A DNA stretch of 39,343 nucleotides from a virus, in IMG/VR virus record IMGVR_UViG_3300028837_000158, positions 1-39,343 of that record, one strand, 5' to 3'. A program made the position numbers and the translations under genes. The notes under the pieces were generated by a model. That model made no database searches, had not been told where the DNA came from, and saw only the letters and a program-made list of their open reading frames with translations. Shown piece by piece: positions 1-39,343 of the stretch (position 1 is its first letter; each line of letters begins with the position of its first letter).

Positions 1-144
1 TGAGGGTCGTCAATTCTGGTATGACCCCGGAACTGGTACTTGGAGTTTACTGTCAGAAGTGGCTGATGTGGGGGCTGCACAACCATCAGCAGCGGAAATA
101 CAAGCACAAACACAATTACAAATACAGCAGATGCAGAGCCAAGC
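1..144. repeat. terminal direct repeat, left copy
   Basis: The first 144 bases are identical to 39200-39343 in the same orientation. A reading frame continues uninterrupted across the join, so this is the overlap of a closed circular assembly or a true terminal redundancy, giving a unit of 39,199 bp. The repeat ends exactly at the window edge, so its biological length cannot be judged. Confidence 0.97.
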
Positions 145-511
145 AGCGATGGAACAAATGAACCGCCAATATGAGTTACAGCGTCAACTTCAGTCAGCAC
201 AGGAAGCACAGGGTATGGCTCAGATGTATGCTGCTGACCCATATAAGTATTGGGCACAGATGGGACAGCTTACTCCAGAAGCGGTAGCCAGACTAACTGG
301 GGGCGAAGTTGAACCCGGTGAACCATTCAAAGGTGTTCCTCTATCATATCCCTCAATGCAATGGTGGCAGAATCTACTTCCCAGTGAGCAACAGCAAATA
401 CTTGGTGCTTTGAACTGGATGGGCATTAGCCCTGAAGATTGGCTCACTATGCTACAACGCATGATACCGGGCTTAGGCTCTAGGCAAATGGAACCACTTT
501 GGGCGAGGTAG
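1..511 (+). CDS. C-terminal part of junction-spanning Gln/Pro-rich virion protein candidate
   Basis: The frame is open from base 2 and ends at the TAG at 509-511. It is the continuation of the gene that starts at 38568; together they encode about 380 residues. An internal GTG at 59 could be mistaken for a start but has no need to be one. This part begins with a Gln-rich segment likely to be helical or coiled coil (about 40 residues), followed by a Trp-containing segment around LPSEQQQILGALNWMG. No family recognised. The position between portal and the giant 1575-aa gene, with 5 bases to the next start, suggests a virion or head-assembly role; that is inference. Confidence 0.85.
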   Translation, partial: EGRQFWYDPGTGTWSLLSEVADVGAAQPSAAEIQAQTQLQIQQMQSQAAMEQMNRQYELQRQLQSAQEAQGMAQMYAADPYKYWAQMGQLTPEAVARLTGGEVEPGEPFKGVPLSYPSMQWWQNLLPSEQQQILGALNWMGISPEDWLTMLQRMIPGLGSRQMEPLWAR

Positions 512-516
512 TATAG

Positions 517-3500
517 ATGCCTGATGGTATAGATTATAGAGCCGAGCTGGACAAACTCTCGCCTGAAAAGCGTGAGGGTTATATATCCAAGTGGAGAGAT
601 TACCTTGGTGGACTTCCACAGCCAGTCTATACTCAAACTCTAACACGTTTAACCAGACAGTATGGCCCCGAATTTGCTTCTGCATTGGTCAGCCCAGAGT
701 TACTATCTGTTGAAACCGTACCACCACCAATTACCGAAGCTCCAGCTAAAAAGCTAAAACCAGAGCTTCCGTGGTATCAGAAGCCTTTGGCTTGGGCGTA
801 TGAGCAACCAGCTCTTAAACCAGCTCTTAAGGGATTAGAGGCATATCATAAAGGCTGGATTGCACCAGCAGCTATGACTGTAGCTCAGTTTGCTTCGCCT
901 CAATTAAGGCAACAACTTGGTGGTAGGCAACCATTTGAACTCTCTGAGGAAGAACGTTATCGCATTTGGGAAGAAGAAAACCAAATGCCGTGGCTGCTTA
1001 AGACCATACCTGAATTAGCTGTTGACCCATTGATGTATCTTGGTTGGGGTCTAGCTCCAAAAGCCTTGAAAGCAGCAGAGATGGCTGGGATGAAGGGTTT
1101 AGCCACAGCAATTAAGCCAGTAGCCAGCCTAGAGGAAGCCTACATCAAAGCAGCAGGAGCACCGATAAGGGCTGTTGGCAGAGAACTTAGGAAGATTCCA
1201 GAGATACAGCTAGGCACAATAGCTGGCAAACCTAGAAAGATTGGTGCTCTTTTTCAAGAATCAGCCCGTTCTATGGTAAACAATGAATCACTCCGTACGT
1301 ATGATTTACTAAGAAATTTGGATGCCGCTGGTGCTCAAGTTGGTAAGCCTCTTAGCCAAACTCTACAAGATATTAGGATGGGAGTAGTTGACCCAACAAT
1401 AACCAATACAATCACCAATCCTCAACAGAGAGCCACTTTAGCCCGCTTAATCCAGAATAAGGATAAGCTGGATTTAGATGTAATAGCTAAAGTGGTAGAT
1501 AGCTTTCCGGAGCGTGCTCCAGTAGTTCTTGCTCGAAAAGAAACTGCTTTGTTGGCAAAGGAGCTGGGGCGTACTGTCCCATCTAAGACACCCGGCGTTA
1601 TAGCACTATCTAAGGATATGTATGGTCTATGGAAGCGGACAGTCCTTACTACTTTTTGGTATGTAGAGCAGAATATAGTGGAGAACTTTATAAGACCAAT
1701 AATGGTTGGAGTTAATCCACTTAAAGACATAAACGCAATAGTAGCTAGTCCAATCTTCAAAAGATGGCCTATAGATATGCAGCGGCGGGCTCTCAGTTTT
1801 GCTCAGAGATGGAATCAGGAGATACCAGAAAACTTGAAGTGGGCTCGCTCAGTCTCCACTGGCGGTCTTACAGAGTCCATGTCTGGCTCTCTAGCCACAG
1901 GCAAAGGTTGGCCTACACTAACTGCTGGAGCCACTTTAGATGAACAAGCTATGTTGCGGACTTTCGACTATATGTATGAGTCATTTGAACGGGAACTGAT
2001 GAAGAAAACCAGTGCCAAGACAGCAAGTGCATTGGCAGAGATGGACAAACTTTTCGATGATGCTATATTGGGAATATCAAAGCAGCAGCCACGCTTTATT
2101 GCCTTAGTGGATGACGCAGCTAAGGAAGCATGGAGAATGGATAGGAATAGGATTGCACAGTTATACCTGTCCGATATTGAAGGGAAAGTTAGCCAGCCTC
2201 TATTAAGAGAAGCATCCGAAGATTTGGTACGAAAAGTTGAATTTGAGGCTGTTAAGATAGCTGGTGGTGCTGACGTTTTGAAAAAACCAGAGTTTGTAAA
2301 ACTTAAAGGTTTAGAGGATACTGGAACCAAAATTAAAATGATGGATTTTGATGGCGTTATAGCTCTGATACATGAGTTTCCATCTGGCCCCGTAGCCGCT
2401 GAAAGGATAATGGAAGGTGGTATCAAAACTTTTGATACTCTTTTTAAGGGTAAAGAAAAAGTTATCAGGAGTTGGATACCCATTGAACCACAGCTTCTTG
2501 AGCATCTTAAATCGGCTTCCATCTCAGGCTCCACAGATGATGTCCTTGCCGCTTTTGCTGAAGCCCAGCGTAACAAAACCATGGCTATAGCCAGAGCTAT
2601 TACTCAAGCTGAAAAAGGATTGCCAGATGCAATCCGCTCAGGTATTAAAAAGGAGCTGCCCAGACTTTGGGCTCGTAATGACCTTCCAGCTATAGAACGC
2701 CTATTCCGGAGATATGAATTATCTTTACCACAACAAATTCAAACTTACCAAAAACAAGCCCTGCTCCAGCGTTTGAGCTACTATAAGAAGCTAGTAAAGC
2801 AATCGGTTCCACAGAAATACCAGCCTCTATATAACCAACTTCTTAATCGCTTTAAGTTTGAACGTGTGGCAGATAGAGAAGCCAGATTGACTGCTGCCAA
2901 GACACTTACCGAATTTGAGAGTGCTATGTTTAATGCCAATCTTGAGAGTATGCGTGAGATGGAGTCTTTGATTTTGGGCAATGTAATAGCGGAATCCATC
3001 GCTACTAAACAATATACTAAAATATCCACTTATGTTGCCATCCATGAGCAAATAGCTCAAGCTGCTTTTAGGGCTGGTGATGAATTAACTTCAAAGACTT
3101 TTGCTCTGACCAAGGTCATCAAATTCGCTAAAGACCCAAAAAAGATTCAGCAGGGATGGGATGAGTACATTATGCACATCCAAAGTGAGTTTCCAGACCA
3201 AGCAGCTATACTGCAAGCATCTGTACCAGATGCCGACCTGTTATGGGCAACCCGTAGAGCTGTTCAGGATAGACGCTGGTTTAAGGTTAGCCAAGATGAG
3301 TTGGCAGCTATGCAGATGGACCCATCTAAGTTCCCAAGATTAACTGATGCCAACGGTAAGCTGCTCACAATGGAAGACTACTTAGGCAAGCAAAAGGTGG
3401 CACTTAATTCTTGGAAAGACCGTGCAATAGAAGCCTTCTCCAAACGACACGAAGTACCAACCACTAAAAATAAACTTCTTGACACTCTCCGTAATGAAAC

Positions 3501-5244: not shown

Positions 5245-5277
5245 TACGCTACTAACTAAAGTTATAGCAGTATCCTA

Positions 5278-5306
5278 TTGACATCGAGTTTAAGTTGACC
5301 TAGAAT
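5278..5306 (+). promoter_or_regulatory. sigma-70-type promoter before the capsid genes
   Basis: TTGACA at 5278-5283, a 17-base spacer, and TAGAAT at 5301-5306. It lies in the 80-base gap after the giant gene and about 12 bases before a small gene leading to scaffold and capsid. It would allow extra capsid transcript beyond read-through. Unlike the three control-region promoters it has no upstream TGTCAA half-site. Confidence 0.6.
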
Positions 5307-5324
5307 TAAATAAGAGGCTAAACA

Positions 5325-5480
5325 ATGCCTGAAGCATTTACAAGGTGTGTTCGCAAACATGGACGTGTTAGGACTATTAAACCAGAGGGGAGACCAGACG
5401 TGTATATCAAAGTTTGTTATCCACCCGGTGGAGGTAGCCCAGTCCATGGCGAAGAACACCACGTAAAGGAAAAGGAATAG
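5325..5480 (+). CDS. 51-aa protein of unknown function
   Basis: ATG with an AAGAGG sequence about 9 bases upstream; ends TAG 12 bases before the scaffold candidate. It encodes 51 residues, basic in the first half (RCVRKHGRVRTI) and ending His/Glu/Lys-rich. Two Cys residues are too far apart for a clear zinc site. Transcribed with scaffold and capsid from the promoter at 5278. Not recognised. Confidence 0.55.
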   Translation: MPEAFTRCVRKHGRVRTIKPEGRPDVYIKVCYPPGGGSPVHGEEHHVKEKE

Positions 5481-5491
5481 GAAGGTGAAAT

Positions 5492-6340: not shown

Positions 6341-6356
6341 AGGAGAATAAACAACT

Positions 6357-7286
6357 ATGGCTATGACTTTAGTTGAAGCCGCAAAGGTTTCTAATGATAT
6401 TCTCCTGAAAGGTGTGATTGAAACCATAATCACGGAATCAGAGATTCTAAAGCACTTGCCCTTTATAGATATAGTGGGCAATGGCTTAACCTATAATCAG
6501 GAGAATGAGTTACCAACCGCAGGCTTCTATAGCGTGGGTGATACATGGACAGAATCAACTCCAAAATTCACTCAACAGACAGCTACCTTGACCATTCTTG
6601 GTGGAGATGCTGATGTAGATGAGTTCTTGCGGCAAACCCGTTCCAATGTCCAGAACCTCAAGGCGATAGTAACCGACCTCAAGAGTAAAGCGGTAGCTAG
6701 AACTTTTGAGGATACATTCGTCTATGGTAGTACCAGCTCTGATGCTAAGAGCTTTAATGGATGCCATGCATTGATACCTACTGCACAGAAAATTCATGCG
6801 GGTAGTTCTGCTACCCCGGCAGCTGGCTCCATCAGGAAGCTGAAGCAACTAATCAGATTGGTCAAACCAAATGGACCCGACTTCTTAATCATGTCCAGAG
6901 CAACCAGAGATAATCTCTCCGATTATGCAGAACGTGATGAAAGTCCGGTACGCATAAGCGGCAGAGATGACATGGGCAAACCAATAATGTATTTTGGTGG
7001 TGTCCCTGTAATTTGTACTGACTGGATTCTACAGACTGAGTCTATCTCTGGTGATGACTACTCCGCAAAGACCAATGGCACCGCAACTTCTATATTTGCT
7101 GCAAAACTTGGCGAGAAGTTGCTTGCAGGCTGCCAGAATGGTGGAATCCAGACAAAAGACCTTGGTGACTTGGAGACCAAAGATGCCACTAGAACCCGTC
7201 TCAAGTGGTATGTCTCGTTAGCTCTATTCAATACTTTAGCGTTGGCTCGGTATGACGGAATCACCGATGCAGCGTGGGGAGCGTGA
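6357..7286 (+). CDS. major capsid protein
   Basis: 309 residues. AAAGGAG precedes the ATG by about 11 bases. The N-terminus (MAMTLVEAAKVSNDILLKGV) followed by a long-loop-like region and GGDADVDEFLRQTRSN resembles phage major capsid proteins of the HK97-fold type that lack a long cleaved delta domain. Size fits capsid subunits of roughly 40-kb phages. It directly follows the scaffold candidate and precedes a decoration-like gene, which is the standard head-gene order. The fold is inferred from family resemblance; the identity as capsid is well supported by context. Confidence 0.85.
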   Translation: MAMTLVEAAKVSNDILLKGVIETIITESEILKHLPFIDIVGNGLTYNQENELPTAGFYSVGDTWTESTPKFTQQTATLTILGGDADVDEFLRQTRSNVQNLKAIVTDLKSKAVARTFEDTFVYGSTSSDAKSFNGCHALIPTAQKIHAGSSATPAAGSIRKLKQLIRLVKPNGPDFLIMSRATRDNLSDYAERDESPVRISGRDDMGKPIMYFGGVPVICTDWILQTESISGDDYSAKTNGTATSIFAAKLGEKLLAGCQNGGIQTKDLGDLETKDATRTRLKWYVSLALFNTLALARYDGITDAAWGA

Positions 7287-7290
7287 CGAA

Positions 7291-8124: not shown

Positions 8125-8137
8125 ACTTCAAGCCATC

Positions 8138-8164: not shown

Positions 8165-8186
8165 ATAAATAAATAAGGAGCATACG

Positions 8187-8318: not shown

Positions 8319-8327
8319 TGGCTATAA

Positions 8328-15438: not shown

Positions 15439-17106
15439 TCAAACATAGGGAACTTTTATAGCATCACCCCAGCTCTTACCAACCTTCAACTCTAGTGGTG
15501 TATCAAAGGGAGCTAATCCAGTAAATAAGCTGGGTGCTGGATAAGTTCCATCATAAACCAATTCATCATGTACCTGAATACGCAAATCAAAATTGGATGC
15601 TTTAGCCATCATCTTCTTGACAATCTCCGAAGCTGTACCCTGCACTGGCATATTGAACAACTCACGGATTACAGCCTCTCTGGAATGAGGGTTAGCCATC
15701 CTAAGCATATCAGCTTTTCGTGTTCGTCCAAACAAAGTAGTAACGTAACCATGTCTGGTTATCTGTTCTCTTTGGCTATGGACATAATCTCTAATACCAG
15801 TATAGGTCTGGAAATACCTGTTCTTAAAATCTGTAGCTTGTGGTAGAGTAAGTTTTATGCCCTTCTTCTTGGCGTTCTCTATAATAGTTTCTTCTTCTCC
15901 AAGATATGTTATAGCAAAATTGAGAGTTTTGGCTAATACCCTTGCTGCTATTGGGTCTGCTAAGTTGCCAGTAATTCCCATCCTATCCATGGTGTCTTTA
16001 TGGATATCTGCACCATTAGCAAAAGCTGACATCATTGCTTTGTCTTGAGCCAAATAAGCTATAGTCCGCAGTTCAATTTGGCTAGCATCAAGGCAGTTAA
16101 ACATTGTATCCGCTAAGAACACCACTCTAAAATACTGTGGTATATTCTGCATATTGATTGGGTTGGAACTTGACAGTCTACCAGTAATTACTCTGGTATT
16201 ATTATAATGTGTATAAGCCCGGTCTAGCCCAAGTAATGGCTCTACATAGGTGGACTGTAACTTTGCTTTCCCACGGTAGATTAGCACAATTTGAGCTAAT
16301 GGGTCATCAATGTCTTGTAATGTTCTTTCATCCACTTTTAGTTGTTTACGGCTCTTAGTGTATGGTAGTCTCCATCCTTTTTGAGCTAGAACTACTCCGA
16401 CTTGCTGATTAGAGTTTGGGTCACAACCTTTGGTCTGTATTAGTTGGCGTAGATATGCAGTTTGAGCATCTAATTCCTCATAAAATTCAGCCACACTTTC
16501 TTGATTCAATGCTACTCCAGCACTCTCCATATGCCTTAGTATATGGACTATATCACGGTCAATATAGTAGCTCTGTTTTGTGTGCATATACAGGTCATAC
16601 CAGCATCTTAGAGTTGAAGATGCGTCAATGCAACACTTTTGCAGCACAAAGTTTGGGTCGGAATTATATACTTCCAGCATAGTGCCACCTTTTGGAATTG
16701 TAAATTGTAGAAATTTGTCTGGTATATTGTATCCAAGACGAAATGCCAGATTATATAATTTCTGTGGTAAATTTAGTGTGTATGCCAGAATCTCAGTATC
16801 CTCAAAATTGGATTCATCAATACCAAATGGTTCAAGTACATCAAAGTCGAACTTGGAGTTGTGGAACACTTTAACTATAGCTGGATTCCTTAGTATATTC
16901 AAAGCAATATAGAAGATTGGACTGTCCTCTCTAAACCAGACGGCATAGTCCGGACTGGGAGCTATAGCCAGACCAATCAATGACTTGTCTTCCAAACTGG
17001 TAGTCTCAGTATCTACACCAACTATCTGAGCAGAAGTCAGTTCTTGGAATATCCGCATTTGGTCTTTAGAGCCAAAATTACCATATACTTCTACTGAGCC
17101 TAACAT
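15439..17106 (-). CDS. polA-like: family A DNA polymerase with 3'-5' exonuclease domain
   Basis: 555 residues, compact for the family. Exonuclease: DxE at 32/34 (GVDTETTSL), N83xxxD87 (HNSKFDFD) and D161 for Exo III, where the usual Tyr four residues before is a Lys. Polymerase: motif A D340 (DASQIELR, Ala for the common Tyr), motif B R389xxxK393xxxF397xxxY401 (AKTLNFAITYLG, lacking the usual Gly after Phe), motif C H513-D514-E515. All metal-binding carboxylates of the polymerase site are present, so it should replicate the phage genome. Phe at the position equivalent to E. coli Pol I 762 is the ancestral-type residue. The ATG follows the previous stop directly. Confidence 0.95.
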   Translation of the reverse strand: MLGSVEVYGNFGSKDQMRIFQELTSAQIVGVDTETTSLEDKSLIGLAIAPSPDYAVWFREDSPIFYIALNILRNPAIVKVFHNSKFDFDVLEPFGIDESNFEDTEILAYTLNLPQKLYNLAFRLGYNIPDKFLQFTIPKGGTMLEVYNSDPNFVLQKCCIDASSTLRCWYDLYMHTKQSYYIDRDIVHILRHMESAGVALNQESVAEFYEELDAQTAYLRQLIQTKGCDPNSNQQVGVVLAQKGWRLPYTKSRKQLKVDERTLQDIDDPLAQIVLIYRGKAKLQSTYVEPLLGLDRAYTHYNNTRVITGRLSSSNPINMQNIPQYFRVVFLADTMFNCLDASQIELRTIAYLAQDKAMMSAFANGADIHKDTMDRMGITGNLADPIAARVLAKTLNFAITYLGEEETIIENAKKKGIKLTLPQATDFKNRYFQTYTGIRDYVHSQREQITRHGYVTTLFGRTRKADMLRMANPHSREAVIRELFNMPVQGTASEIVKKMMAKASNFDLRIQVHDELVYDGTYPAPSLFTGLAPFDTPLELKVGKSWGDAIKVPYV

Positions 17107-17373: not shown

Positions 17374-17612
17374 TCTTTCACCTCCTTCTTTACTTCTGTC
17401 TGACCATTACGAATAGCATTGATTATAAATTCTTCCGGATTATCTAAAGACTCCAATGGCATCATAAGCCCATCATCTTCGCCAGAGGTAAAGTAAATAC
17501 TGCCAACCATATCAAACTCTAACTCAGTACCATGAATCAAAATTAATTCCTGTTCCAGATGGTCTGGGTCAGATTGTTTAGTCCTCATATCTGCAAGTAA
17601 TTTTATCCACAT
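17370..17612 (-). CDS. 80-aa protein of unknown function
   Basis: ATG at 17612 lies 10 bases inside the methyltransferase gene with AGGAAG 6 bases upstream; a second Met at residue 9 has no ribosome site. Acidic, with HGTELEFDMVGSIYF and a C-terminal Lys/Glu tail. Overlaps both neighbours, as is usual for this operon. Not recognised. Confidence 0.6.
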   Translation of the reverse strand: MWIKLLADMRTKQSDPDHLEQELILIHGTELEFDMVGSIYFTSGEDDGLMMPLESLDNPEEFIINAIRNGQTEVKKEVKE

Positions 17613-18391
17613 TCTGGCTTCCTCATTATTATTATATCTTCCGTAATGACGTGTGGTATATCAGGATTTTGGCTCCATGCCACTTGCAATCTCAAACTTG
17701 GTTTAGCTTCACGCTCACGCCACTGGTACAATTCAAAGCCAACCTCATAACAAATCTTGAGAGTATCAGCAGAGTACGGTTCTATGCCACCATATCCACG
17801 ATATGAACTGGCTTTGGTATTGACAGAATCTTTGGTAATAGTACACATGAAGCCACCCGGTGGTAGTGAGTTGTATATTCCACGATAAATTTCTTTCATG
17901 CCAACCAGTAAGTTGAAATAACTCAGAGTTGCTAATTGCGCTCTATCTTGACCATACTCACCAACAAATGTACCCGCTTCTGCTGCCATTCTAGCGACTT
18001 TGGTGCCAGCTTTGGATATATTTACACTATAAGGTGGGCTGAATATACAGTGGTCAGCCTTATATGGTAAGAATCTCCGAGCGTCTCCATGAAGCAAACC
18101 AAATGTGCCAGTAGGATTGTGGTGCAACTGCATGAAAGCCCAGCTAAGTTGCTGTACCTCGTAGAAGTGCTGTTCCAGCTCTATATTTATTACATTCCTA
18201 CCCAACAGAGTAGCGTACATTAGTGAGCCAACTCCACTTGTCGGGTCTAGTATAGTATCACCGGGCTTAGTCAGCTTTTTAATTAGCCAAATCATCATAT
18301 ATAGATTAGCTTTGGCTGGGTGTCCTTTGTCTGCTCCAGCAAAATACTTCTTCCGTAGTTGTACGTCACTTGGGAATTTAAGTTGTCTCAT
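17603..18391 (-). CDS. DNA N6-adenine/N4-cytosine methyltransferase
   Basis: 262 residues from the ATG at 18391, which forms an ATGA overlap with the 58-aa gene upstream; a longer reading frame to 18436 would overlap that gene fully. HPAKANLYMMIWLI (24-37), DPTSGVGSL (49-57, SAM-binding motif I) and SPPY (118-121, catalytic motif IV) identify an amino-methyltransferase of exocyclic nitrogen. The order, SAM motif before catalytic motif, is that of alpha/gamma-type enzymes. No restriction partner is encoded, so it probably protects phage DNA or alters regulation. The target site cannot be read from the sequence. All catalytic motifs are intact. Confidence 0.9.
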   Translation of the reverse strand: MRQLKFPSDVQLRKKYFAGADKGHPAKANLYMMIWLIKKLTKPGDTILDPTSGVGSLMYATLLGRNVINIELEQHFYEVQQLSWAFMQLHHNPTGTFGLLHGDARRFLPYKADHCIFSPPYSVNISKAGTKVARMAAEAGTFVGEYGQDRAQLATLSYFNLLVGMKEIYRGIYNSLPPGGFMCTITKDSVNTKASSYRGYGGIEPYSADTLKICYEVGFELYQWREREAKPSLRLQVAWSQNPDIPHVITEDIIIMRKPECG

Positions 18392-18564
18392 TGCCAAAGT
18401 GACCTCCCAAGTTCCCACATAAATAGACAAAAGCAAATAGCAATCAATGGTTCATGATGCCAGAATTGAGTCCAGTTGAACAAGACATCACTTGAAGTTA
18501 GTTGTTGATGGGCAATGCCTAGAATGGCAAGCAATAAGAATGTACATTGGATTATCTTACCCAT
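18388..18564 (-). CDS. 58-aa two-helix membrane microprotein
   Basis: ATG at 18564 shares its A with the upstream TAA (TAATG); its TGA overlaps the methyltransferase ATG. 58 residues with two hydrophobic stretches, FLLLAILGIA (9-18) and LIAICFCLFMW (40-50), separated by a polar loop. It would sit in the host inner membrane. It is coupled on both sides, which strongly supports it as a real gene despite its size. Function unknown; superinfection or host-membrane modification is a guess. Confidence 0.65.
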   Translation of the reverse strand: MGKIIQCTFLLLAILGIAHQQLTSSDVLFNWTQFWHHEPLIAICFCLFMWELGRSLWQ

Positions 18565-25028: not shown

Positions 25029-25208
25029 CTATTTGCTCCCAGCCAATATATTGTCCAATGAACTTCGTGCTATGCGGATAGTGCCATTTGGAAGGACTAT
25101 TCCGACTATCCATCCACGCTTTACCCATCTATAAAGAGTCCATTTAGAAATACTAAGAATAGCCGCTGCTTCTTTGGCAGGAACAAAGCTCTCCATAGTT
25201 GTCTCCAT
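25029..25208 (-). CDS. 59-aa excisionase/MerR-like HTH protein
   Basis: ATG shares its A with the stop of the zincin-vWA gene (TAATG). VPAKEAAAILSISKWTLYRW (9-28) is a helix-turn-helix of the HTH_17/excisionase type, followed by a wing (GIVLPNGTIRIARSSL). Such proteins bind DNA as small dimers or as directionality factors; here no integrase exists, so a transcription-control or replication-initiation role beside the RepA-type ATPase is more likely. It is a candidate binder of the TTATGTCAAG sites. Confidence 0.75.
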   Translation of the reverse strand: METTMESFVPAKEAAAILSISKWTLYRWVKRGWIVGIVLPNGTIRIARSSLDNILAGSK

Positions 25209-26956
25209 TAAGGCTTACCCCCCATCTTATTTAGATTTACTTGCTCGACCAGTATTTGATATAGTGCATCTGGAAACTCAGCTAGTCCAGATAGCTGTCT
25301 CCAGTTCATACCGTCATAGTCATAGTGTTTGGTCTCACGCCCCCAAATTAGATTGACTAATTCAATGCCTCTAGGCTTGATTATCCAGTTGGCATTCCAT
25401 GGCGGAAGACTACAGTTATGCTCACCATCAGTGAGGTGAATTATTAGCCCACCACGCTTCATGCCTAGTGATACACCAACTATAGCTAGACCACTGGGAG
25501 TATTACCAGTGGGTTCATGTTGGTGGACTAACTTACCATCATCAACTCTTATCAAATCCACCTTTGTACCCGTGTTATAATAACACCAAACCTCAGCATT
25601 TACCAAGGTCTGCAATGCTCCAGCAGCTTGCAATACCTCATCAGCTTGCCGACCAGACATAGAGCCAGACAAATCAATTAGTATCTTGGTATCTGGAAAT
25701 CCATCTGGAAATTTGTACTTTAAGTTGAATATGCGACCATCCGTAGAGACTCTATGTAATTGGCACTTATCAATTTTGCCATATTGTTCACCATACATAG
25801 TCCTCGACTGGAGTCTTTTGCGTATAGTCATAATCCGTTCCAGCCTTTTGCATAACAGGAAATCAGGTTTAATCATTGGAGTCTTAGTTTCACGGGAACG
25901 AATTACTGGAAGCTGTCTTACTCCACCTATTCCATCAAGTTCCTTATCCACTTGTTCAGTTATATCTTCTGAATCGGACTGGACAGCATCTTCTATGGCT
26001 TTAGCCAATTCATCACCAATGTTATCCTCTGGAGTGTGTGTTAGAGGTGGCTTCAAATTATCATCCTTACTATCGTCATCAGTATCAGTGTTTGTTCCAG
26101 CTCCATTATCATCTTCATCCTCATCATCATCTGGCTCATCCTCTTTGGTATCATCATTCTGGCTGGTAGACATTCCAGTGGTAATCTTGGGCTCATCAGG
26201 CTCGTCATCTGGTTTATCATCTGGTGGTGTGACTGGTGTTTGTGTTGGTGCTGATGATTTTGGTGGCTCAGGCATAGTCAATATAGCATCCTTAACCATA
26301 TCCCAACAATTAAGATAAGCCTCAAGTCTATTGGATGGCCCAGCACGAAGCCCAGCTTGTCTAAGCCATTTATCTAACTCAACTAACCGATGCATTGCTT
26401 CTTCAAGCTCTGGTATTATATTGAATAATCTGTCCGACTTGTGCCCCAAAGAATACTCTATCCACAACTCCAGTAGCTTATGTGGCTGGGCTTCCCGCAT
26501 CTTACTAATAGCCCAAGTGGATAGAGCCCGCTCATAGTCTGCTAAGTTTGAATTGGAACGCATCATTTCCTCAACAACAATATCCTCACCAATGTTCATA
26601 AAGGTTTGGAATAGTTCCCCCTCTGCTAACGCTGTTATGGAACTGTGCCCACCAGTTAAGTGACTAGTTTCAATAATGTAATGCCCAACTTCATGGAGCA
26701 TCAGTCCAACTAATATGTCAAAGTTATCGGCTGGTACTGGAGCCTCAGTGAATAGGCTACCACCCCCAATGAGAACTTCTTTTTGCTTACTTACAAAGTC
26801 AATACCACTAGATTCACCTTTGGTAGTGAACTTCACATTGAAATCGGATGGTAGCCCAGCAGCACCAGCCACTTTCTTGAGTGCTTTAAGAACTTGGGCA
26901 CCCTCGACTGGCATAAGACTGGATTTATTGATTCGCCAATTATCACTCCTTGCCAT
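25208..26956 (-). CDS. zincin-like + von Willebrand A domain protein, partner of MoxR ATPase
   Basis: 582 residues from the ATG at 26956, which has GGAG 7 bases upstream; the longer frame begins with a TTG at 26980. The N-terminal part holds HEVGH (88-92) and NIGEDIVVEE (121-130), matching a metallopeptidase-like HExxH site with a downstream Glu. Residues 230-345 are a highly acidic, Pro/Asp-rich linker. The C-terminal vWA domain has the complete metal site DLSGS (428-432), T486 and D510. This order, and the MoxR gene just upstream, resemble CobT-like/vWA proteins that are substrate-binding partners of MoxR-type ATPases. The role in phage is unknown: chaperone, remodelling or peptidase. The domains are clear; the system is not. 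Confidence 0.85.
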   Translation of the reverse strand: MARSDNWRINKSSLMPVEGAQVLKALKKVAGAAGLPSDFNVKFTTKGESSGIDFVSKQKEVLIGGGSLFTEAPVPADNFDILVGLMLHEVGHYIIETSHLTGGHSSITALAEGELFQTFMNIGEDIVVEEMMRSNSNLADYERALSTWAISKMREAQPHKLLELWIEYSLGHKSDRLFNIIPELEEAMHRLVELDKWLRQAGLRAGPSNRLEAYLNCWDMVKDAILTMPEPPKSSAPTQTPVTPPDDKPDDEPDEPKITTGMSTSQNDDTKEDEPDDDEDEDDNGAGTNTDTDDDSKDDNLKPPLTHTPEDNIGDELAKAIEDAVQSDSEDITEQVDKELDGIGGVRQLPVIRSRETKTPMIKPDFLLCKRLERIMTIRKRLQSRTMYGEQYGKIDKCQLHRVSTDGRIFNLKYKFPDGFPDTKILIDLSGSMSGRQADEVLQAAGALQTLVNAEVWCYYNTGTKVDLIRVDDGKLVHQHEPTGNTPSGLAIVGVSLGMKRGGLIIHLTDGEHNCSLPPWNANWIIKPRGIELVNLIWGRETKHYDYDGMNWRQLSGLAEFPDALYQILVEQVNLNKMGGKP

Positions 26957-27113
26957 CTGCAATCTCCAATATCTCCTCAATCAGCTTACTCATATTCCAA
27001 TCACCATCGTAGTCGGAATCGTAATATGGCATGGCAGTACGGAGCAAAATTTCCAGTTTGACCCGCCTCTGCTCCCCCATCAATCTTAGAATATGTTTAA
27101 TTATGGTTATCAT
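26943..27113 (-). CDS. 56-aa protein between MoxR and vWA genes
   Basis: ATG shares its A with the MoxR stop (TAATG at 27113) and its TGA lies 14 bases inside the vWA gene. 56 residues, a basic helical N-terminal half (MITIIKHILRLMGEQRRVKL) and an acidic second half with YYDSDYDGDW. Small, coupled and always in step with both partners, so it may be a third component of the MoxR-vWA module. No family recognised. Confidence 0.6.
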   Translation of the reverse strand: MITIIKHILRLMGEQRRVKLEILLRTAMPYYDSDYDGDWNMSKLIEEILEIADGKE

Positions 27114-27943
27114 TATAGCACCACAAAAGCGTTTTGAGTACCATCAGGAACACTAACAACACCATTGCCAACAAAGTCCAGATGTAACAAGATACTCTCC
27201 AGTTTATCCTTATCCAGAGCCACATTACTAATGATTGCATGGCGCAAGCCCAATCCCATCTGTATCAACTCTGCCATCATTAGAACACGCCTAGTTGATA
27301 TGTGGATTGGGTCTTGCCCATCAAACCTGAGTTTGTTGACGAATTGGAGCAGTTTAGTCACCATTTCACCTGCCAGTCCAGTTCTAAGCACAATTAAGTT
27401 GGTCTCTTGTATTGCTGGTAAGTAGTCCAGTTGGACAATATGAAACCTATCTTCCAATGCTGCATCAAGTGGGTCTATACCAGTATATTCAAAGCCCTCG
27501 TTGAGAGTGGCGACAAAGACTACACCATTTGCCACTCTAACCTCGCCCAACTGTTCGTGTGCAATGGCTCTACCATCATCCAGCAAAGGGAATAGGTCAT
27601 TAAGTGCCTTGGGTGATTCTGGTCGATTAAGTTCTTCCAGATGAAGTAGGCTGTTTGGAGTCCTAACTGCTGTGGGAAACTTGCCTTCCACAAACTTAGT
27701 CTCTCCGCCTACCAGTTCGTATCGCCCCATTAGTTGACCTGTTTCTTGCAATGAGCCAATAGGTATAGGCACGTAGTCCATGCCAGCATTGACTGCCAGT
27801 TGTCTAGCACATTCCGACTTCCCCATTCCATGTTTACCCTTTACCAGAATATTGACGGGGTGGTTCCGCTTAGTCTCCATGACTTTGGTTAATTGGGTTT
27901 TGTTACTTTGACTAATAAAGAACGCTTGCTTTTTTGGAATCAT
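27113..27943 (-). CDS. MoxR-type AAA+ ATPase
   Basis: 276 residues. Walker A G36KHGMGKS43, a pore-like segment QETGQLMGRYE (66-76), Walker B LLHLEELNRP (99-108), sensor-1 N148 and an arginine finger in LEDRFH (163-168). This is the full MoxR/RavA signature set. The zincin-vWA gene follows after one 56-aa gene, the known pairing of MoxR ATPases with vWA proteins. The enzyme is expected to use ATP to remodel or insert metal into a target recognised by the vWA partner. A 54-aa gene overlaps its start by ATGA. Confidence 0.9.
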   Translation of the reverse strand: MIPKKQAFFISQSNKTQLTKVMETKRNHPVNILVKGKHGMGKSECARQLAVNAGMDYVPIPIGSLQETGQLMGRYELVGGETKFVEGKFPTAVRTPNSLLHLEELNRPESPKALNDLFPLLDDGRAIAHEQLGEVRVANGVVFVATLNEGFEYTGIDPLDAALEDRFHIVQLDYLPAIQETNLIVLRTGLAGEMVTKLLQFVNKLRFDGQDPIHISTRRVLMMAELIQMGLGLRHAIISNVALDKDKLESILLHLDFVGNGVVSVPDGTQNAFVVL

Positions 27944-31069: not shown

Positions 31070-31079
31070 AGTATATAGG

Positions 31080-31917: not shown

Positions 31918-31944
31918 CAAGATAAAAGGCGGAGGGTAAATATA

Positions 31945-32145: not shown

Positions 32146-32154
32146 AGGTAAAGC

Positions 32155-32298
32155 ATGACTGAGCAAGAAGAGATAAGGTGGATTTTAACTCATCCGTATA
32201 GATGGAACTTACCGTGTAACTATTTGCATTATCAGATTCGCATAAAAGTCCCGACACATTATTATATTGATACAGCAGGGGAGGTGCAGTGTGTCTAG
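32155..32298 (+). CDS. 47-aa protein of unknown function
   Basis: ATG behind AGAGGT. 47 residues, aromatic-rich (WILTHPYRWNLPCNYLHYQI). Its end overlaps the next GTG start by 8 bases, supporting a coupled gene. Not recognised. Confidence 0.5.
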   Translation: MTEQEEIRWILTHPYRWNLPCNYLHYQIRIKVPTHYYIDTAGEVQCV

Positions 32299-33380: not shown

Positions 33381-33389
33381 GGAGATTAG

Positions 33390-34943
33390 TTGGTAACTCA
33401 AACAGCACCACCAGTAGCTCAGATAGACTTGGCTACTAAGTTAGCCATGGCTGAGAATCTCCTATGGATTGTAGATAAAGAGGCTCAGTTAATACCACTC
33501 CGGCTGAATAGACCACAGAGATTATTATTCTCTAATTGGTCTAACCGTATGGCTTTACCCAAATCCAGACAAGAGGGTTTAAGTACAGGTATTTTGAGCC
33601 TCTTTTTCATAGAAGCACAAGTGATTCCGGGCTTGGTTGTAGCTATAGTTAGCCATGAGGACTATGCCACAAGAAGGCTGCTAGACAAAATAGACATATT
33701 CCACAAGCATCTTCCACCTAGGATGCAGAGTAAGTTGTTCCATGACTCAGATAATGAAAAGGTATTTGAGAATGGCTCAACCATCTATATAGGTACTGCT
33801 GGTCAGAGAGCATTTGGTAGAGGCGATACAATACATAGGGCATTGGTATCTGAAGAAGCCCATTACATTGATGCTGAGAAGCTGTTATCAGGTCTGGCAG
33901 AAGCAATACCAATGTCCGGCTATCTAATCCGTGAGTCAACCCCACTAGGTGATTCTGGTCACTTTTACACTTCGGTACAGGACTGTATTGAAGGCAAGTC
34001 CGATTTCAAACTGATTCCATTCTATTGGTGGCTAGCAGATGACTACCGAATACCAAGAGATAGTGCATTAGTATTAGAAGAAGAACGTGGGGAACTGACT
34101 TATACTCCAAAAGAAATTGAGCTTATGTTGGAGAAGAGGCTGGATGAGAATCAGATAAGGTGGAGAAGATGGAAAATCCGCTCCATGAAGTCAGAGAATA
34201 AAGGCAATCTATTTCCACAAGAATACATCGAAGATTTAGAGTCATGTTGGTTGGGTCCACCAGATAAAGTCTTTAGCGAAGTGGATGAGCAGCTCCAATC
34301 ATGGAGCCTTAAAGCTAGAGACCCAATTAGGCAAGAGGGTATATTAGAGGTATGGAAAGAACCCGAAGTCGGAGCCAAGTACATATTCTGGATTGACCCA
34401 GCGGGTGGAGAAGGAGCTACCGATAATGACCCACATGATGGGGTTATTTTGAAACTAACTGCTGGTGGACTAGAACACGTAGCTTCGGTGCAGAGTAGAA
34501 TGGAACAGAAACCATTTGCATACAAGGTAGCGGAGATTGGGACCAGATACAATAAGGCTTTATTAGTGGTAGAGCGGAACGGTGTGGGCAAGGGAGTTCT
34601 TAATTATCTGGTGAACGATATTGCCTATTCAAATCTTTATTTGGAACGTAAAGCTGACGGAGAGCTAACTGGTAGCTGGGGTTGGAACACAGACCACGCA
34701 AATAAAGCTATGATGGTGAGTGATACCATTACAGCTATCAAGAATGATACAGTGGTAAGCTATGATAGGAAGCTAGTTCGCCAGCTACGAGCCTTAGTCT
34801 ACAAAGATGGTAAGATAACCGTTAAGAAGTCCGTCCACGATGATAGAGCAATGTCTTTTATGGGAGCTATTGCAGTCAGTCCTCAACATTTCTTCACTAA
34901 TACATTGGCAGTTTCAGATTACGTAACGTTCAAGGGGAAGTAA
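33390..34943 (+). CDS. terminase large subunit
   Basis: 517 residues. TTG start with GGTAAGGAG upstream; no ATG fits. ATPase: Walker-A-like K58SRQEGLST66 and Walker B ALVSEEAH (151-158, E155/E156). Nuclease: D336 (FWIDPAGGEG), E395 (LLVVERNG) and D484/D485 (HDDRAM). This is the full two-domain packaging motor that cuts concatemers and pumps DNA into the head through the portal. Catalytic residues are all present. The portal gene follows 840 bases on. Length is normal for the family. Confidence 0.95.
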   Translation: MVTQTAPPVAQIDLATKLAMAENLLWIVDKEAQLIPLRLNRPQRLLFSNWSNRMALPKSRQEGLSTGILSLFFIEAQVIPGLVVAIVSHEDYATRRLLDKIDIFHKHLPPRMQSKLFHDSDNEKVFENGSTIYIGTAGQRAFGRGDTIHRALVSEEAHYIDAEKLLSGLAEAIPMSGYLIRESTPLGDSGHFYTSVQDCIEGKSDFKLIPFYWWLADDYRIPRDSALVLEEERGELTYTPKEIELMLEKRLDENQIRWRRWKIRSMKSENKGNLFPQEYIEDLESCWLGPPDKVFSEVDEQLQSWSLKARDPIRQEGILEVWKEPEVGAKYIFWIDPAGGEGATDNDPHDGVILKLTAGGLEHVASVQSRMEQKPFAYKVAEIGTRYNKALLVVERNGVGKGVLNYLVNDIAYSNLYLERKADGELTGSWGWNTDHANKAMMVSDTITAIKNDTVVSYDRKLVRQLRALVYKDGKITVKKSVHDDRAMSFMGAIAVSPQHFFTNTLAVSDYVTFKGK

Positions 34944-34945
34944 AT

Positions 34946-35221
34946 ATGGACTATAAGAAAAATAAAAGTCGAAATGCCGCTATAATTTGTATCAATACAG
35001 AGGTCTTATTGGATTGGTTACAATTTCATGGTGGCACTATACATAGTATAGGGATGCCAAAAGATATATGGCGTCCGGATGAGATTGAGATTCTTATTGA
35101 ACATCCAGATTTATATGAGGTACGAACTGGTGATATACTTATGAAAATTACGCCAGTATATACAGGAACCGAACGTATTGAACCACCTAAAAAACCTATA
35201 AGGAGAAGAAAGAATGTCTAA
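34946..35221 (+). CDS. 91-aa protein of unknown function
   Basis: ATG 2 bases after the terminase stop with GGGGAAG upstream. Begins basic (DYKKNKSRN), then AIICINTEVLLDWLQFHGGTIHSIG and EIEILIEHPDLYEV, and ends basic (PPKKPIRRRKN). Similar short genes lie between terminase and portal in many phages. Not recognised. Confidence 0.6.
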   Translation: MDYKKNKSRNAAIICINTEVLLDWLQFHGGTIHSIGMPKDIWRPDEIEILIEHPDLYEVRTGDILMKITPVYTGTERIEPPKKPIRRRKNV

Positions 35222-35402
35222 TATGGATAAAGATTGGCGACCTGAGAACTGGGAGCAGATTAGGCGGGAATTGGCTGCTGTTCCATTCGTTTGGTCACCA
35301 GCTGGACCCAACCTCAGTTCTTCTGAGCAGTTAATTGAAGCTACTGCCAGCAGAATATTGGAAGAATATCTAAAGAGTATGACAAGTGAAACCACAGACT
35401 GA
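35214..35402 (+). CDS. 62-aa acidic protein of unknown function
   Basis: ATG with AAGGAG 6-7 bases upstream, overlapping the previous gene by 8. 62 residues with WRPENWEQIRRELAAVPFVW and a helical end (LIEATASRILEEYLKSM). No motif recognised. Confidence 0.6.
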   Translation: MSNMDKDWRPENWEQIRRELAAVPFVWSPAGPNLSSSEQLIEATASRILEEYLKSMTSETTD

Positions 35403-35598
35403 TGCAGAACGCAGACCACGGACTCCTAAAGAGCCAGTTCGTGTTAGACTCTATGTTTGCACCATATGTGGTAAGTCCGGTGGTACTCTTATTAAGGTGA
35501 AGCAGGACAAAGGCCAGACATGGTATGCACATAGAGAATGTTTAAGTGGGGTAGCAAATGGCAGAGCTAACAGCCAAGAAGCGGAATCAACTTCCTGA
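35386..35598 (+). CDS. 70-aa zinc-binding protein
   Basis: GTG start at 35386 inside the previous gene, with AAAGAG upstream. CTICGKSGG (24-27) with HREC (49-52) makes a CC-HC zinc site; basic N-terminus (ERRPRTPKEPVRVRLY). It overlaps the next gene by 41 bases in another frame. Start choice is uncertain but the site is only complete in this frame. Confidence 0.55.
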   Translation: MKPQTDAERRPRTPKEPVRVRLYVCTICGKSGGTLIKVKQDKGQTWYAHRECLSGVANGRANSQEAESTS

Positions 35599-35785
35599 TA
35601 GTGCCTTTGCATTGTCGGGGCGTAGGTATCCAATACATGATGAGGCTCATGCTAGGAACGCTATAGCCAGAGTAATGCAACATGGTACTAAAGCAGAACA
35701 AACTACTGTACTACGTAAAGTCCATGCTAAGTATCCAAACATTGAGCTTAGTGGCGAACATTTACGTAGAATACGGAGGTCATAA
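35558..35785 (+). CDS. DUF6582-like small phage protein
   Basis: 75 residues. Contains LPDSAFALSGRRYPIHDEAH (12-31), ARNAIARVMQHG and LRKVHAKYPNI, a pattern repeated in phage and prophage proteins (LPDxxF-x-RYPIHDxxHARNAxxR-x-HG and KYP) that I associate with DUF6582. Its role is unknown. Located immediately before the portal gene, whose start overlaps its stop by one base (TAATG). Confidence 0.75.
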   Translation: MAELTAKKRNQLPDSAFALSGRRYPIHDEAHARNAIARVMQHGTKAEQTTVLRKVHAKYPNIELSGEHLRRIRRS

Positions 35786-37650
35786 TGGCTAGACCAACAA
35801 AGAAATTTATCTTTGACCGTTTAGGTGAACTCCATACCTATTATTCTGCCCGGAATATCAATTTTGATTTGGATGACCAGTATTACGAGCTTTTATTCCG
35901 GGATAAACTAGGTTTGCCACAAGAATATAAAGAAGATGGAGTTGTTCTTCCAACTGCCAGAGATATAGTAGATGCTGGCACTAATCATATATCCACAATC
36001 TATGCACGTTTCTTTAGACCTATGCGTGGTGACACTCCAGAAGCTAGAGAGCAAGCTGAAATGTTACGCAAATTTGATGTTGCCATGTTCTATCGGACTA
36101 AGGTTGAATCGGATATTAGCCCATGGAGGGATGGCTCTAAGCATGGTTGTCTTTATGGTATGTGGTGCTTTGAAACTCTTTATGACCCAAGTAAGATTCC
36201 AGACGAGCCAGAGCAGGAAGAAGATGAGTCGGATGAGGATTTCCAGAACAGAATGGATATCTATAAAGGTGAACTTTATGATTCCTTGCCAATAGCGATT
36301 AGGGAAGTCCATCCAAGAAATGTCTATCCAGACCCAAGCGGCGAGTTTATGATAATTGAGGAGTCCAAGACTATTGGTCAAGCTAGGTCTGAGTGGCCTA
36401 ACTGGACTGCTCCGATAACAAGTACAGCCGCAGCAGGCAAGACAATGCAGGATGTAATCCAAGTGTCATTTATTAATAAGAAGTATCGGGCTATTTACGT
36501 AAATGGTGAGCCAGTTTTAGAGGCAGGCGATAAAGAGGGAGTCTTGGAGCATGATTACGGCTTCATACCGTATGTTATTGGTTACTCAGGTTTGGGTAAC
36601 TTGAGCAAGAGTGCCAAGCCAGAGTTAAAAGCTGTTGGCTTAATACGTTATCTCCAAGGCTTGCTACGTTCCGAATCATTTGCTTATTCGGTTTATAATA
36701 TCACCATTAAAGCTCATAGTTGGCCTATAACTTTCGTGTCTGGCCCCGGAGCAGCTGCTTTAGCCGCTATAAAACTTAAGTTTGGCAAGATATATGAGAA
36801 GCCACCGGGTGTCACTATTGAGGATTATATAAAGTCTGCACCACCAGAAATAGTTATGCAACATATGGAATATACCAATGCAGTATTGTCTGCTAGTGCC
36901 GCTCCTAGAAGTGTACGTGGACTTCCAGAATCTGGTGTCAGGTCTGGTACTGACCGCTCATTGGTAATTTCTCAAGCTAGATTGAAGTATGATTCTATAA
37001 TGGAGCAAATACAGTTATCCACCGCTAAGGTCATGTCCAACTGCACTAAGATAGCTGAGAGAGTAGTGCCAGAAGATTTCCATATGTGGGCTAAAACTCC
37101 TGATGAGGAATTTGATTTCAGGATTGACCGCTCCAAGATAAAGCACCACTATACGACATTTGTTGAATTTACTTCAGTCAGTGCTGAAGATGAGGCTCGC
37201 AGACACGCTGATATGGAGAACCTTGTTAAAACTGGTATAATCTCTACTGGAACTGGCAGGCGACGCTATATGACCCATATTGACCCGGAAGCTGAGGATA
37301 TTAAGGTAGAAGCTGAAAAGCTCCGTAATGACCCAGCCGTAAGACAGGTCTTGGGTCAAATGGCGGCAGAATGGCTGGCTGGAGAAGCTGCTAGGTTAGG
37401 CAAAATTAGAGCATTAAAAGCTGGTGAACCTGACTCAGCAGCTCTCTCTGGTCCCGGTATGGCTCAATCTATATCAGCCATGACTAGGCAACAGCAAGGT
37501 ACATATTCACCAGCAATGCCCGGAAGTCCTGAACAAATGGCTGCTATACAAGCTAAGGCTGCTGGTAGGACTAGCACTGGTGGTGGTATAACAGTTCCTG
37601 GTACACCTATAAAAAGTCCAACACCGTATGGTCAAGTTACTACACCATAG
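35785..37650 (+). CDS. portal protein
   Basis: 621 residues. N-terminus helical, then RDIVDAGTNHISTIYARFFRP (59-79), a wing-like region (WRDGSKHGCLYGMWCFETLY near 115), IREVHPRNVYPDPSG near 172 and a stem/crown region ending in a Gly/Pro/Thr-rich tail. Size and location between terminase and capsid genes match a podophage-like portal. It forms the dodecameric channel through which DNA enters the head. Coupled to the preceding gene by TAATG. Confidence 0.9.
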   Translation: MARPTKKFIFDRLGELHTYYSARNINFDLDDQYYELLFRDKLGLPQEYKEDGVVLPTARDIVDAGTNHISTIYARFFRPMRGDTPEAREQAEMLRKFDVAMFYRTKVESDISPWRDGSKHGCLYGMWCFETLYDPSKIPDEPEQEEDESDEDFQNRMDIYKGELYDSLPIAIREVHPRNVYPDPSGEFMIIEESKTIGQARSEWPNWTAPITSTAAAGKTMQDVIQVSFINKKYRAIYVNGEPVLEAGDKEGVLEHDYGFIPYVIGYSGLGNLSKSAKPELKAVGLIRYLQGLLRSESFAYSVYNITIKAHSWPITFVSGPGAAALAAIKLKFGKIYEKPPGVTIEDYIKSAPPEIVMQHMEYTNAVLSASAAPRSVRGLPESGVRSGTDRSLVISQARLKYDSIMEQIQLSTAKVMSNCTKIAERVVPEDFHMWAKTPDEEFDFRIDRSKIKHHYTTFVEFTSVSAEDEARRHADMENLVKTGIISTGTGRRRYMTHIDPEAEDIKVEAEKLRNDPAVRQVLGQMAAEWLAGEAARLGKIRALKAGEPDSAALSGPGMAQSISAMTRQQQGTYSPAMPGSPEQMAAIQAKAAGRTSTGGGITVPGTPIKSPTPYGQVTTP

Positions 37651-37664
37651 GAGAGTAGTTTAGG

Positions 37665-37916
37665 ATGGCACAGGCTTTATTTGAGCGTAGTATTGAGTTG
37701 ACAAGCAAGGATTTAGATTTGCTGGGGCGACTCTGTTTGCCTTATAAGCTAATCAGCATTGAGACTGGAATAAGTGTTCCACATATAAAATTCAAAGTGC
37801 AGCAGTTGGCGATTAAATTCAACGTGGAGAACAGAACTGCTTTGGTAGTGAAAGCCTTACAGTTGGGTTTGGTTGATATTAGAAACTTAGCTTACAGGAA
37901 ACGAAATGGCAACTGA
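37665..37916 (+). CDS. LuxR/GerE-type HTH protein
   Basis: 83 residues. IELTSKDLDLLGRLCLPYKL (10-29) with ISIETGISVPHIKFKVQQL and FNVENRTALVVKALQLGLV gives the GerE/LuxR DNA-binding four-helix pattern, including the conserved starting LT-x-L and ending NRTALVVKA. No receiver or sensor domain precedes it. It lies 14 bases after the portal stop within virion genes and so is expressed late; late-gene regulator or virion-carried DNA binder. Strong motif for the fold, unknown target. Confidence 0.8.
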   Translation: MAQALFERSIELTSKDLDLLGRLCLPYKLISIETGISVPHIKFKVQQLAIKFNVENRTALVVKALQLGLVDIRNLAYRKRNGN

Positions 37917-38190
37917 AAAGACATATTTAGAAAAGCTAATGGAAGAAACTCTACGTCCAGTAATCGGTGCATTGGAGTTACTTCGCAAAGAAATAAACGA
38001 GACCATGCAAATTCCAGATAGTCCATGGCAAATACTAAACAAGCCTTATGATGAGTTGACAGAGCAGGAAATTTTGGCTCTGTATGACATTTACCACCAA
38101 GAAGGTGAGAAAGAACCCTGTCCGATGTGTAACTGGACAGCTAGAATTGAGCTTCAGAAGATGAGACAAGACCAGAAGGAGGGCGTATAA
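37906..38190 (+). CDS. 94-aa protein with CPMC site
   Basis: ATG behind GGAAAC, overlapping the HTH gene by 11. 94 residues, helical acidic (ETLRPVIGALELLRKEIN, ELTEQEILALYDIYHQEG), one Cys pair CPMC near 72-75. The single pair may bind metal as a dimer. Stop overlaps the next ATG by one base. Not recognised. Confidence 0.6.
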   Translation: MATEKTYLEKLMEETLRPVIGALELLRKEINETMQIPDSPWQILNKPYDELTEQEILALYDIYHQEGEKEPCPMCNWTARIELQKMRQDQKEGV

Positions 38191-38555
38191 TGAATGGACA
38201 AGACACAGATATACTAAGTAAATTAGCGAAATTGCCATGGTGGCAAAACCTGATGCGTATGATGGGTCGAGGTGAACAACAAGCACCAGCGGGAGCAGTT
38301 CCGGGACAACCACAACAGCCCCCTATACAACGACCACAACAGCCCATGATGCCTCAGCAACCACTTGGTTTTCCACAATCTGATATACCGTATCGAGTTG
38401 AACAACTTGTGGCTCAAGGTGTTCCCAGACAACAAGCTGAGGTTATGGCATTGCAAGAAGCTATGGCAGCTAGAAAGCAAGAGTTATCTGGATTACCTTC
38501 CAGCATACCACAACGGATGCGGGCTGGTACTGAGTATCTAAAGCAAATCAAATAA
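38190..38555 (+). CDS. 121-aa Gln/Pro-rich protein
   Basis: ATG behind GAAGGAGGG, coupled by TAATG. 121 residues. Residues 10-27 are helical and aromatic (LSKLAKLPWWQNLMRMMGR), 30-62 low complexity (many Pro and Gln), and 65-121 helical (QLVAQGVPRQQAEVMALQEA). Probably a virion component or assembly factor, similar in style to the following gene. No family. Confidence 0.6.
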   Translation: MNGQDTDILSKLAKLPWWQNLMRMMGRGEQQAPAGAVPGQPQQPPIQRPQQPMMPQQPLGFPQSDIPYRVEQLVAQGVPRQQAEVMALQEAMAARKQELSGLPSSIPQRMRAGTEYLKQIK

Positions 38556-38567
38556 TGGAGGGAAATC

Positions 38568-39343
38568 ATGCCTAATGGAGAATATGGACCCACTACACCT
38601 ACAAGTACAGTAGGCTTGCGTGAACAGCTTTTACGTGGAGCTGGAGCTGGCGGAGTGGGAGCAAGAACACCATATAGAGCACCAGTTGGAGCACCATATG
38701 TAGCCCCACCCGCACCATCTCCGAAGTGGTGGGAGTTTTGGAAAGCAGAGCCACCTCCACAAAGTGAGTTAGCTCAGATATATGCACAACAGCAAGCTCA
38801 ACCATGGTGGCAGCAGGCTCTTGCTGGCACATCAGCAATACAGACTCAGGGTGGAGATTACTCTCAAATCTTGGGTGGTGTTGCACCAATGTTGGGTGGT
38901 CTCGGCCCCAGTATAGGTAGGGCTGTGAGCCCACTAATTACTCAAAGACTTGGAGAGGCACTTACGGCTGTTCCAAGGTGGATGGGTGCACACAAGATGG
39001 CTACTGGCGCTCTTGGTGCTGGTGGTTATTTCGGTTTGAGTAATCTATTGGGAGATAGAGGCATAGCTACAGAGAGGGGAGAGTTTGTACCATTCAGTGA
39101 AGCTCCATTACTAACAGAAGAACCAGTGGCAGCTCCCGGATTACCTACGCCCGGTCTTGATGATTTTGGTTTAGGTGGTGAACCACAGGTGGTAGAGGTT
39201 GAGGGTCGTCAATTCTGGTATGACCCCGGAACTGGTACTTGGAGTTTACTGTCAGAAGTGGCTGATGTGGGGGCTGCACAACCATCAGCAGCGGAAATAC
39301 AAGCACAAACACAATTACAAATACAGCAGATGCAGAGCCAAGC
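38568..39343 (+). CDS. junction-spanning Gln/Pro-rich virion protein candidate, N-terminal part
   Basis: ATG behind ATGGAGGG; the frame stays open to the window end and continues at base 145 through the circular join to the stop at 511, about 380 residues in total. N-terminal part is Gly/Ala/Pro-rich (RGAGAGGVGARTPYRAPVGA), then WWEFWK, a hydrophobic Gly-rich stretch (ILGGVAPMLGGLGPSIG) that may be membrane-active, and a Glu/Pro-rich section before the Gln-rich half. The Gly-rich amphipathic segment would suit an ejection protein. Family not recognised. Confidence 0.8.
   Translation, partial: MPNGEYGPTTPTSTVGLREQLLRGAGAGGVGARTPYRAPVGAPYVAPPAPSPKWWEFWKAEPPPQSELAQIYAQQQAQPWWQQALAGTSAIQTQGGDYSQILGGVAPMLGGLGPSIGRAVSPLITQRLGEALTAVPRWMGAHKMATGALGAGGYFGLSNLLGDRGIATERGEFVPFSEAPLLTEEPVAAPGLPTPGLDDFGLGGEPQVVEVEGRQFWYDPGTGTWSLLSEVADVGAAQPSAAEIQAQTQLQIQQMQSQ
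39200..39343. repeat. terminal direct repeat, right copy
   Basis: Identical to bases 1-144. Marks the closure point of the circular unit. Confidence 0.97.

Follow-up and report, generated by a model that had tools for sequence, protein, structure and literature searches.

The virus genome IMGVR_UViG_3300028837_000158 from IMG/VR, 39,343 nucleotides long and analyzed here at its full length (hereafter the window), is that of a tailed phage and does not contain a single copy of the tetranucleotide GATC. This absence is real and due to selection. The loss was found to be shared with the nearest relatives of the phage and to have proceeded by synonymous escape, and the GATC level of related prophages correlates with that of their host chromosomes. 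With a probability of roughly 0.68, we attribute it to long-lived GATC-specific Type II restriction across a pool of Dehalococcoidia-like hosts, by systems that are now largely lost or unrecognized.

An earlier note, made from the letters alone, had reported no GATC anywhere in the window and about 150 sites expected by chance, and had proposed counting tetramers against a Markov expectation. The exact count was 0 in 39,343 unambiguous bases, on both strands as the word is a palindrome. Base composition predicts 147.7 sites, in line with the earlier figure, and the tri- and dinucleotide counts predict 118.7; the Poisson probability of finding none is ~10^-52. Elimination of Type II sites in prokaryotic viruses has been defined by a compositional bias below 0.1 (Rusinov et al., 2018; PMC6286503), and with 0/118.7 the window falls under an observed/expected ratio (O/E) of 0.1 at an expectation above 15, our ratio being a maximal-order Markov estimate and not the Burge compositional bias used in that study. 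In the open reading frames (ORFs; 30.6 kb of coding sequence) no GATC was found, whereas 200 synonymous-codon shuffles that preserved proteins and codon usage gave a mean of 93.4 (standard deviation 7.4, minimum 75). Outside the ORFs there was none against 14.6 expected, and no site is formed across the circular junction.

Some library and Hi-C protocols employ GATC cutters, and the contig is of metagenomic origin. A library made with such an enzyme, or a GC or codon bias, could thus have favored GATC-free contigs. However, the depletion was seen in independent IMG/VR metagenomes and in dozens of independent projects yielding metagenome-assembled genomes (MAGs), the same collections also contain Chloroflexota with no such depletion, and the shuffles kept at least 75 sites with the same proteins and codon usage. 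Both a library artefact and a base-composition effect were therefore rejected, and we regard an explanation of this kind as highly improbable.

The codon contexts show how the sites were escaped. In the window, Asp before a codon starting with C is GAC in 72 cases and never GAT, whereas GAT accounts for 74% elsewhere. Ile after a codon ending in G is ATT in 63 cases, ATA in 58 and ATC in none, and Ser after xGA never uses TCN. The related phage G001 (see below) was found to have nearly the same escape pattern. Pooled GATC-depleted host genomes contained 15 GAT|C against 585 GAC|C, with ATC after G at 1.6%, whereas the escape was absent in control hosts (GAT|C 30%, ATC after G 39%).

A different process could leave a similar mark in hosts and phages alike if GATC, being hypermutable or methylated (e.g., to GAT-5-methylcytosine by an orphan methyltransferase), decayed to GATT/AATC. 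The depletion in phages and hosts is equal in size (pooled 0.26 and 0.28), as a shared mutational process predicts, and the codon-context test does not separate selection from a mutational hotspot with random outcomes. However, the product of deamination was not in excess: the ATT:ATA ratio of the window was 1.09 after G and 0.90 elsewhere, and that of depleted hosts was 1.24 and 1.51, respectively. The change from T to C at GAT|C contributed equally, and GATA (211) and GATG (219) had risen at least as much as GATT (190). Pairs of Asp with a following Pro, His or Gln were reduced to 0.72, far above the ~0.26 expected under simple decay of GAT|C; the reduction suggests that some amino acid changes may also have served to lose GATC. 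Since escape took every available synonymous change without a clear excess of C-to-T products, a base-specific decay of the 5-methylcytosine type is not the cause; its deamination was rejected as a candidate because neither GATT/AATC nor, after G, ATT over ATA was in excess. Altogether, mutational loss appears an improbable account of the data.

GATC is not the only word avoided. In the window CGCG was found 0 times against 19 expected, GGCC 19 against 104, GCGC 15 against 45, and AAGCTT 0 against about 17.6-27, while second-order simulations gave 75 expected for CCWGG (8 found) and 64 for GGWCC (11 found). Pooled 6-bp palindromes numbered 243 against 484 expected, whereas GANTC, GCNGC, CTNAG and GAAGA were close to expectation. 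The earlier statement that other palindromes are common therefore holds for AGCT, CATG, CTAG, GTAC and CCGG, which are numerous, but not for CGCG, GGCC, GCGC, AAGCTT, CCWGG and GGWCC.

The features of the window that are used below, together with the remaining annotated ones, are as follows.

1-39343, no strand: whole genome, circular-complete, without GATC and without CGCG
1-144, plus strand: direct terminal repeat of 144 bp, left copy
6357-7286, plus strand: major capsid protein of the HK97 type (phrog_212), from which kinship and host were inferred
15439-17106, minus strand: family A DNA polymerase that includes a 3'-5' exonuclease domain, part of the replication module
17603-18436, minus strand: DNA methyltransferase, 277 amino acids
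19193-19927, minus strand: protein with ERCC4/XPF-type nuclease domain, replication half
25208-27943, minus strand: vWA-like protein (read from sequence) and adjoining MoxR/CbbQ-type AAA ATPase, replication half
33390-34943, plus strand: terminase large subunit
35785-37650, plus strand: probable portal protein, placed by its position after the terminase only, with no family match
39200-39343, plus strand: direct terminal repeat of 144 bp, right copy

The direct terminal repeat indicates that the contig is complete, either circular or terminally redundant. No integrase was recognized among the window proteins scanned, and the phage, which is complete, is probably non-temperate. Sak4-like and Cas4-like proteins and a RepA/DnaB-like ATPase are also encoded; no transfer RNA gene was found in the window.

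Only one near relative was found in IMG/VR besides a 4-kb fragment. This relative, G001 (IMGVR 3300032053_000183; 40,556 bp), is 78% identical to the window in the terminase and 81% in the capsid protein, and the terminase of the fragment, L002, is 72% identical. The comparison with related phages that the earlier note had called for showed that both share the loss: GATC was found 3 times against 120 expected in G001 and 0 times against 13 in L002. G001 also avoids CGCG (5/53), GGCC (31/136) and AAGCTT (0/19.6), whereas GCGC is not avoided (78/93), in contrast to the window. Loss of GATC is thus a trait of the lineage, while avoidance of GCGC is the window's own. That the sets of avoided words differ is as expected from a changing set of restriction enzymes. 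Cultured phages are only 35-37% identical in the capsid protein. Neither megablast of the first 20 kb of the window nor tblastn of the portal candidate matched any of 50,697 phage records, and a pattern scan of viral contigs for the DNA polymerase found no relative.

Alignment of the capsid protein gave at least 201 relatives in GTDB genomes. Nearly all of the best 80 belonged to Chloroflexota and the majority were Dehalococcoidia MAGs, with one bin labeled Deltaproteobacteria; as the relatives are matches listed from a pattern search, phyla beyond Chloroflexota are possibly under-sampled. The nearest Chloroflexota prophages among the matches listed were 46-53% identical in the capsid protein. 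In the capsid tree the window and G001 were nested in the set of Chloroflexota prophages, and the separation of this set from the cultured phages had a support of 100. Their neighbors in the tree were L013/L093 (support 93; long branches). The word signature of the window was found to fit GATC-depleted members best (0.66 with G485, compared to 0.72 with the relative G001). Judged from capsid kinship and word composition, the host is most likely a Dehalococcoidia-like member of the Chloroflexota.

Many chromosomes of such hosts were found to be depleted of GATC as well. We sampled the host O/E from other contigs of 35 Chloroflexota MAGs, of which 34 were usable. It ranged from 0.03 to 0.92 and was below 0.15 in 17 of them. 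Prophage and host O/E for GATC were tightly correlated, both for whole loci (rho 0.89) and for 8-kb cores that surround the capsid gene (rho 0.87); the median of the cores was 0.039 in hosts below 0.15 and 0.59 in hosts above 0.4. A similar correlation was seen for GGCC (rho 0.88), with weaker agreement for other palindromes. Over all fetched loci the median GATC O/E was 0.17. Four independent contrasts on firm branches of the capsid tree went in the same direction almost always and in the opposite never, although four are too few for significance (p 0.125). The earlier note had described a loss by a phage; that loss is real, but it is not specific to phages, as related prophages and many Chloroflexota and Dehalococcoidia chromosomes are depleted too.

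Single contigs illustrate the depth of the loss. A 20.9-kb prophage flank carrying gapdh, enolase and purL (L082) had 0 GATC against 81 expected, and in a Dehalococcoidales MAG one contig of 218.7 kb (G010:C102; L311-L321) had 23 against 780, with a GATC-free run of 38 kb. The residual sites of this contig are partly clustered, six of them lying in 5 kb adjoining a tyrosine recombinase at ~130-133 kb. A second contig of the same MAG (G010:C63; L322, L263) is otherwise GATC-poor but includes a low-GC stretch with 18 GATC in 5 kb. This stretch codes for an adenine methyltransferase of the D12 type as well as a HARE-HTH protein and is a probable recent island. If the bins are correct, the clustering indicates that recently arrived DNA is tolerated although GATC is still present in it.

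These islands bear on a reading in which restriction operates without modification. Some Dehalococcoidia would have purged GATC from the chromosome and kept an unrecognized, methyltransferase-independent GATC nuclease; absence of the word would then mark self, and only GATC-free phages would survive. It agrees with chromosomes that are down to 3%, have no recognized GATC endonuclease and mostly have no D12 methyltransferase. Unless misbinned or protected, however, GATC-rich islands (16 in 3.9 kb; the 18 in 5 kb on G010:C63) are tolerated by the same MAG, and single residual sites are present in ordinary genes. It is therefore doubtful, and we rate it as rather improbable.

In the explanation that we prefer, ancient Type II restriction within the host pool, at least one orthodox Type II system would have kept cutting unmodified GATC over a very long period, with further specificities in the same pool (e.g., CGCG, GGCC/GGNCC, CCWGG, and AAGCTT). 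Any GATC gained by a genome that has to pass through such cells would lower its survival, and phages and host chromosomes alike would lose their sites nearly entirely by synonymous changes. The chromosomes may have been affected because self-protection is imperfect. The agent would be a Type II endonuclease that acted on the phage's own host, and the present MAGs would either have lost it or carry one that is unrecognized.

Several observations weigh against this explanation. The host assignment is built on a capsid protein of ~50% identity and on word composition. A search of 393 genomes of the class for CRISPR (clustered regularly interspaced short palindromic repeats) spacers gave matches of 25-34 bp, none of them in a repeat array where checked; no near-identical prophage of the window was found in host genomes; and there was no close terminase, only distant matches in 7 of 400 genomes. 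Rusinov et al. (PMC6286503) report near-elimination to be less frequent in the chromosomes of prokaryotes than in their phages, which makes a chromosomal O/E of 0.03 surprising and extreme for ordinary self-avoidance by restriction-modification (R-M). Such a value would need great age of the pressure or an unrecognized GATC-reading system.

The enzymes point the same way. GATC is the site of the orthodox Type II enzymes DpnII, MboI and Sau3AI (PMC4687349, PMC12707154), and the earlier note had proposed restriction of this type by the host and a search of candidate hosts for it. Strong selection on the word is borne out by the codon shuffles and codon contexts, but the named families did not turn up in candidate hosts: a DpnII/MboI-type endonuclease was found in 0 of 16, and the Sau3AI/MutH family in 0 of 50. 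The DpnII family was present in 7 of 294 genomes of the class, whose loci are mostly not strongly depleted. DpnI exceeded the cut-off in 3 of 34 MAGs, none among the most depleted, and of the DpnI-type (methyl-GATC) nuclease genes L280, L281 and L282, two reside in hosts with near-normal GATC. MAGs are incomplete and prone to losing defense islands, so that the absence of an enzyme is weak for each genome yet consistent over many. D12 methyltransferases were scattered among depleted hosts. The clearest complete system was an EcoRV-like R-M pair (L264, 519-2244) in the GATC-depleted Chloroflexota MAG G491; its methyltransferase, the best D12 candidate of the depleted hosts, was rejected as part of a GATC system since it belongs to an EcoRV-type (GATATC) one. 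The DpnI/DpnII/DpnIII cassettes of Streptococcus resemble the present case in that they expose phages and gene flow to restriction at GATC, whereas here neither the DpnII type nor the DpnI type was seen in the most depleted genomes tested.

The same searches bear on other forms of selection on GATC, such as nicking by MutH-type mismatch repair, phosphorothioation/Dnd or another GATC-reading defense, or DNA exchange between DpnI and DpnII strains. For genomes that carry DpnI, avoidance of GATC has been proposed to result from mismatch-repair nicking and strain exchange (PMC4687349). However, the MutH/Sau3AI family and DpnI were distributed as described above, and the unrelated words CGCG, CCWGG, GGNCC and AAGCTT are avoided too, for which a process directed at GATC only does not account. 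This makes such selection an unlikely cause.

The methyltransferase of the phage does not help to explain the loss. Motif I (DPTSGVGS, ~18224-18247) precedes motif IV (SPPY, ~18029-18040), the only match to known families is a short one over motif I to N6_N4_Mtase (PF01555), and no MethyltransfD12 domain or DPPY motif was found. The protein is 74-78% identical to that of G001 and the relatives that it has in the class are weak. A phage-encoded Dam was rejected on the SPPY motif, the motif order and the lack of a D12 domain. Being unlike Dam or D12, the enzyme cannot be used to explain GATC loss, and the earlier suggestion that avoidance predates or complements phage methylation finds no footing in it. 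Its site is more likely to be among the words that are not avoided, since a phage has no need to avoid a site that it methylates itself.

Site elimination as a phage strategy is already known; what is unusual here is that it is coupled to an almost complete loss in the chromosomes of hosts. As in the eliminations described for phages (PMC6286503), a double-stranded DNA phage has lost a 4-bp Type II palindrome almost totally under selection, and GATC is among the sites known to be avoided. Here, however, the count is 0/119, the host is inferred, no matching endonuclease was found in candidate hosts, and the depletion of host chromosomes is similarly deep. Lost R-M systems have been described as leaving traces in the genomes of prokaryotes (Rusinov et al., 2015; PMC4687349), and these traces likewise involve a Type II site avoided without the enzyme in the genome and in common with related genomes, with GATC as an outlier; here an O/E of 0.03 extends over 218.7 kb and correlates tightly with resident prophages. 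Viruses from acid mine drainage avoid palindromes in common with their hosts, including GATC and GGCC, but there the hosts differ and avoidance is graded, not elimination (PMC2745766). We found nothing on point in the literature on GATC avoidance in Dehalococcoides or Dehalococcoidia, and as far as the literature searched shows a clade-wide, host-coupled loss of this depth has not been described for Dehalococcoidia.

The results give a testable, clade-wide statement: in a large and mostly uncultured bacterial group, phages and chromosomes are without up to 97-100% of their GATC, and no known GATC enzyme was found. Either ancient restriction systems came and went and base composition preserves their fossil record, or an unrecognized GATC-reading defense is at work. 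With prophage-host correlations of 0.87-0.89, the levels of GATC and GGCC are a possible host marker for metagenomic viruses. GATC-based methods (Hi-C with DpnII or MboI, Sau3AI libraries, and Dam-based assays) will detect these organisms and their phages hardly at all.

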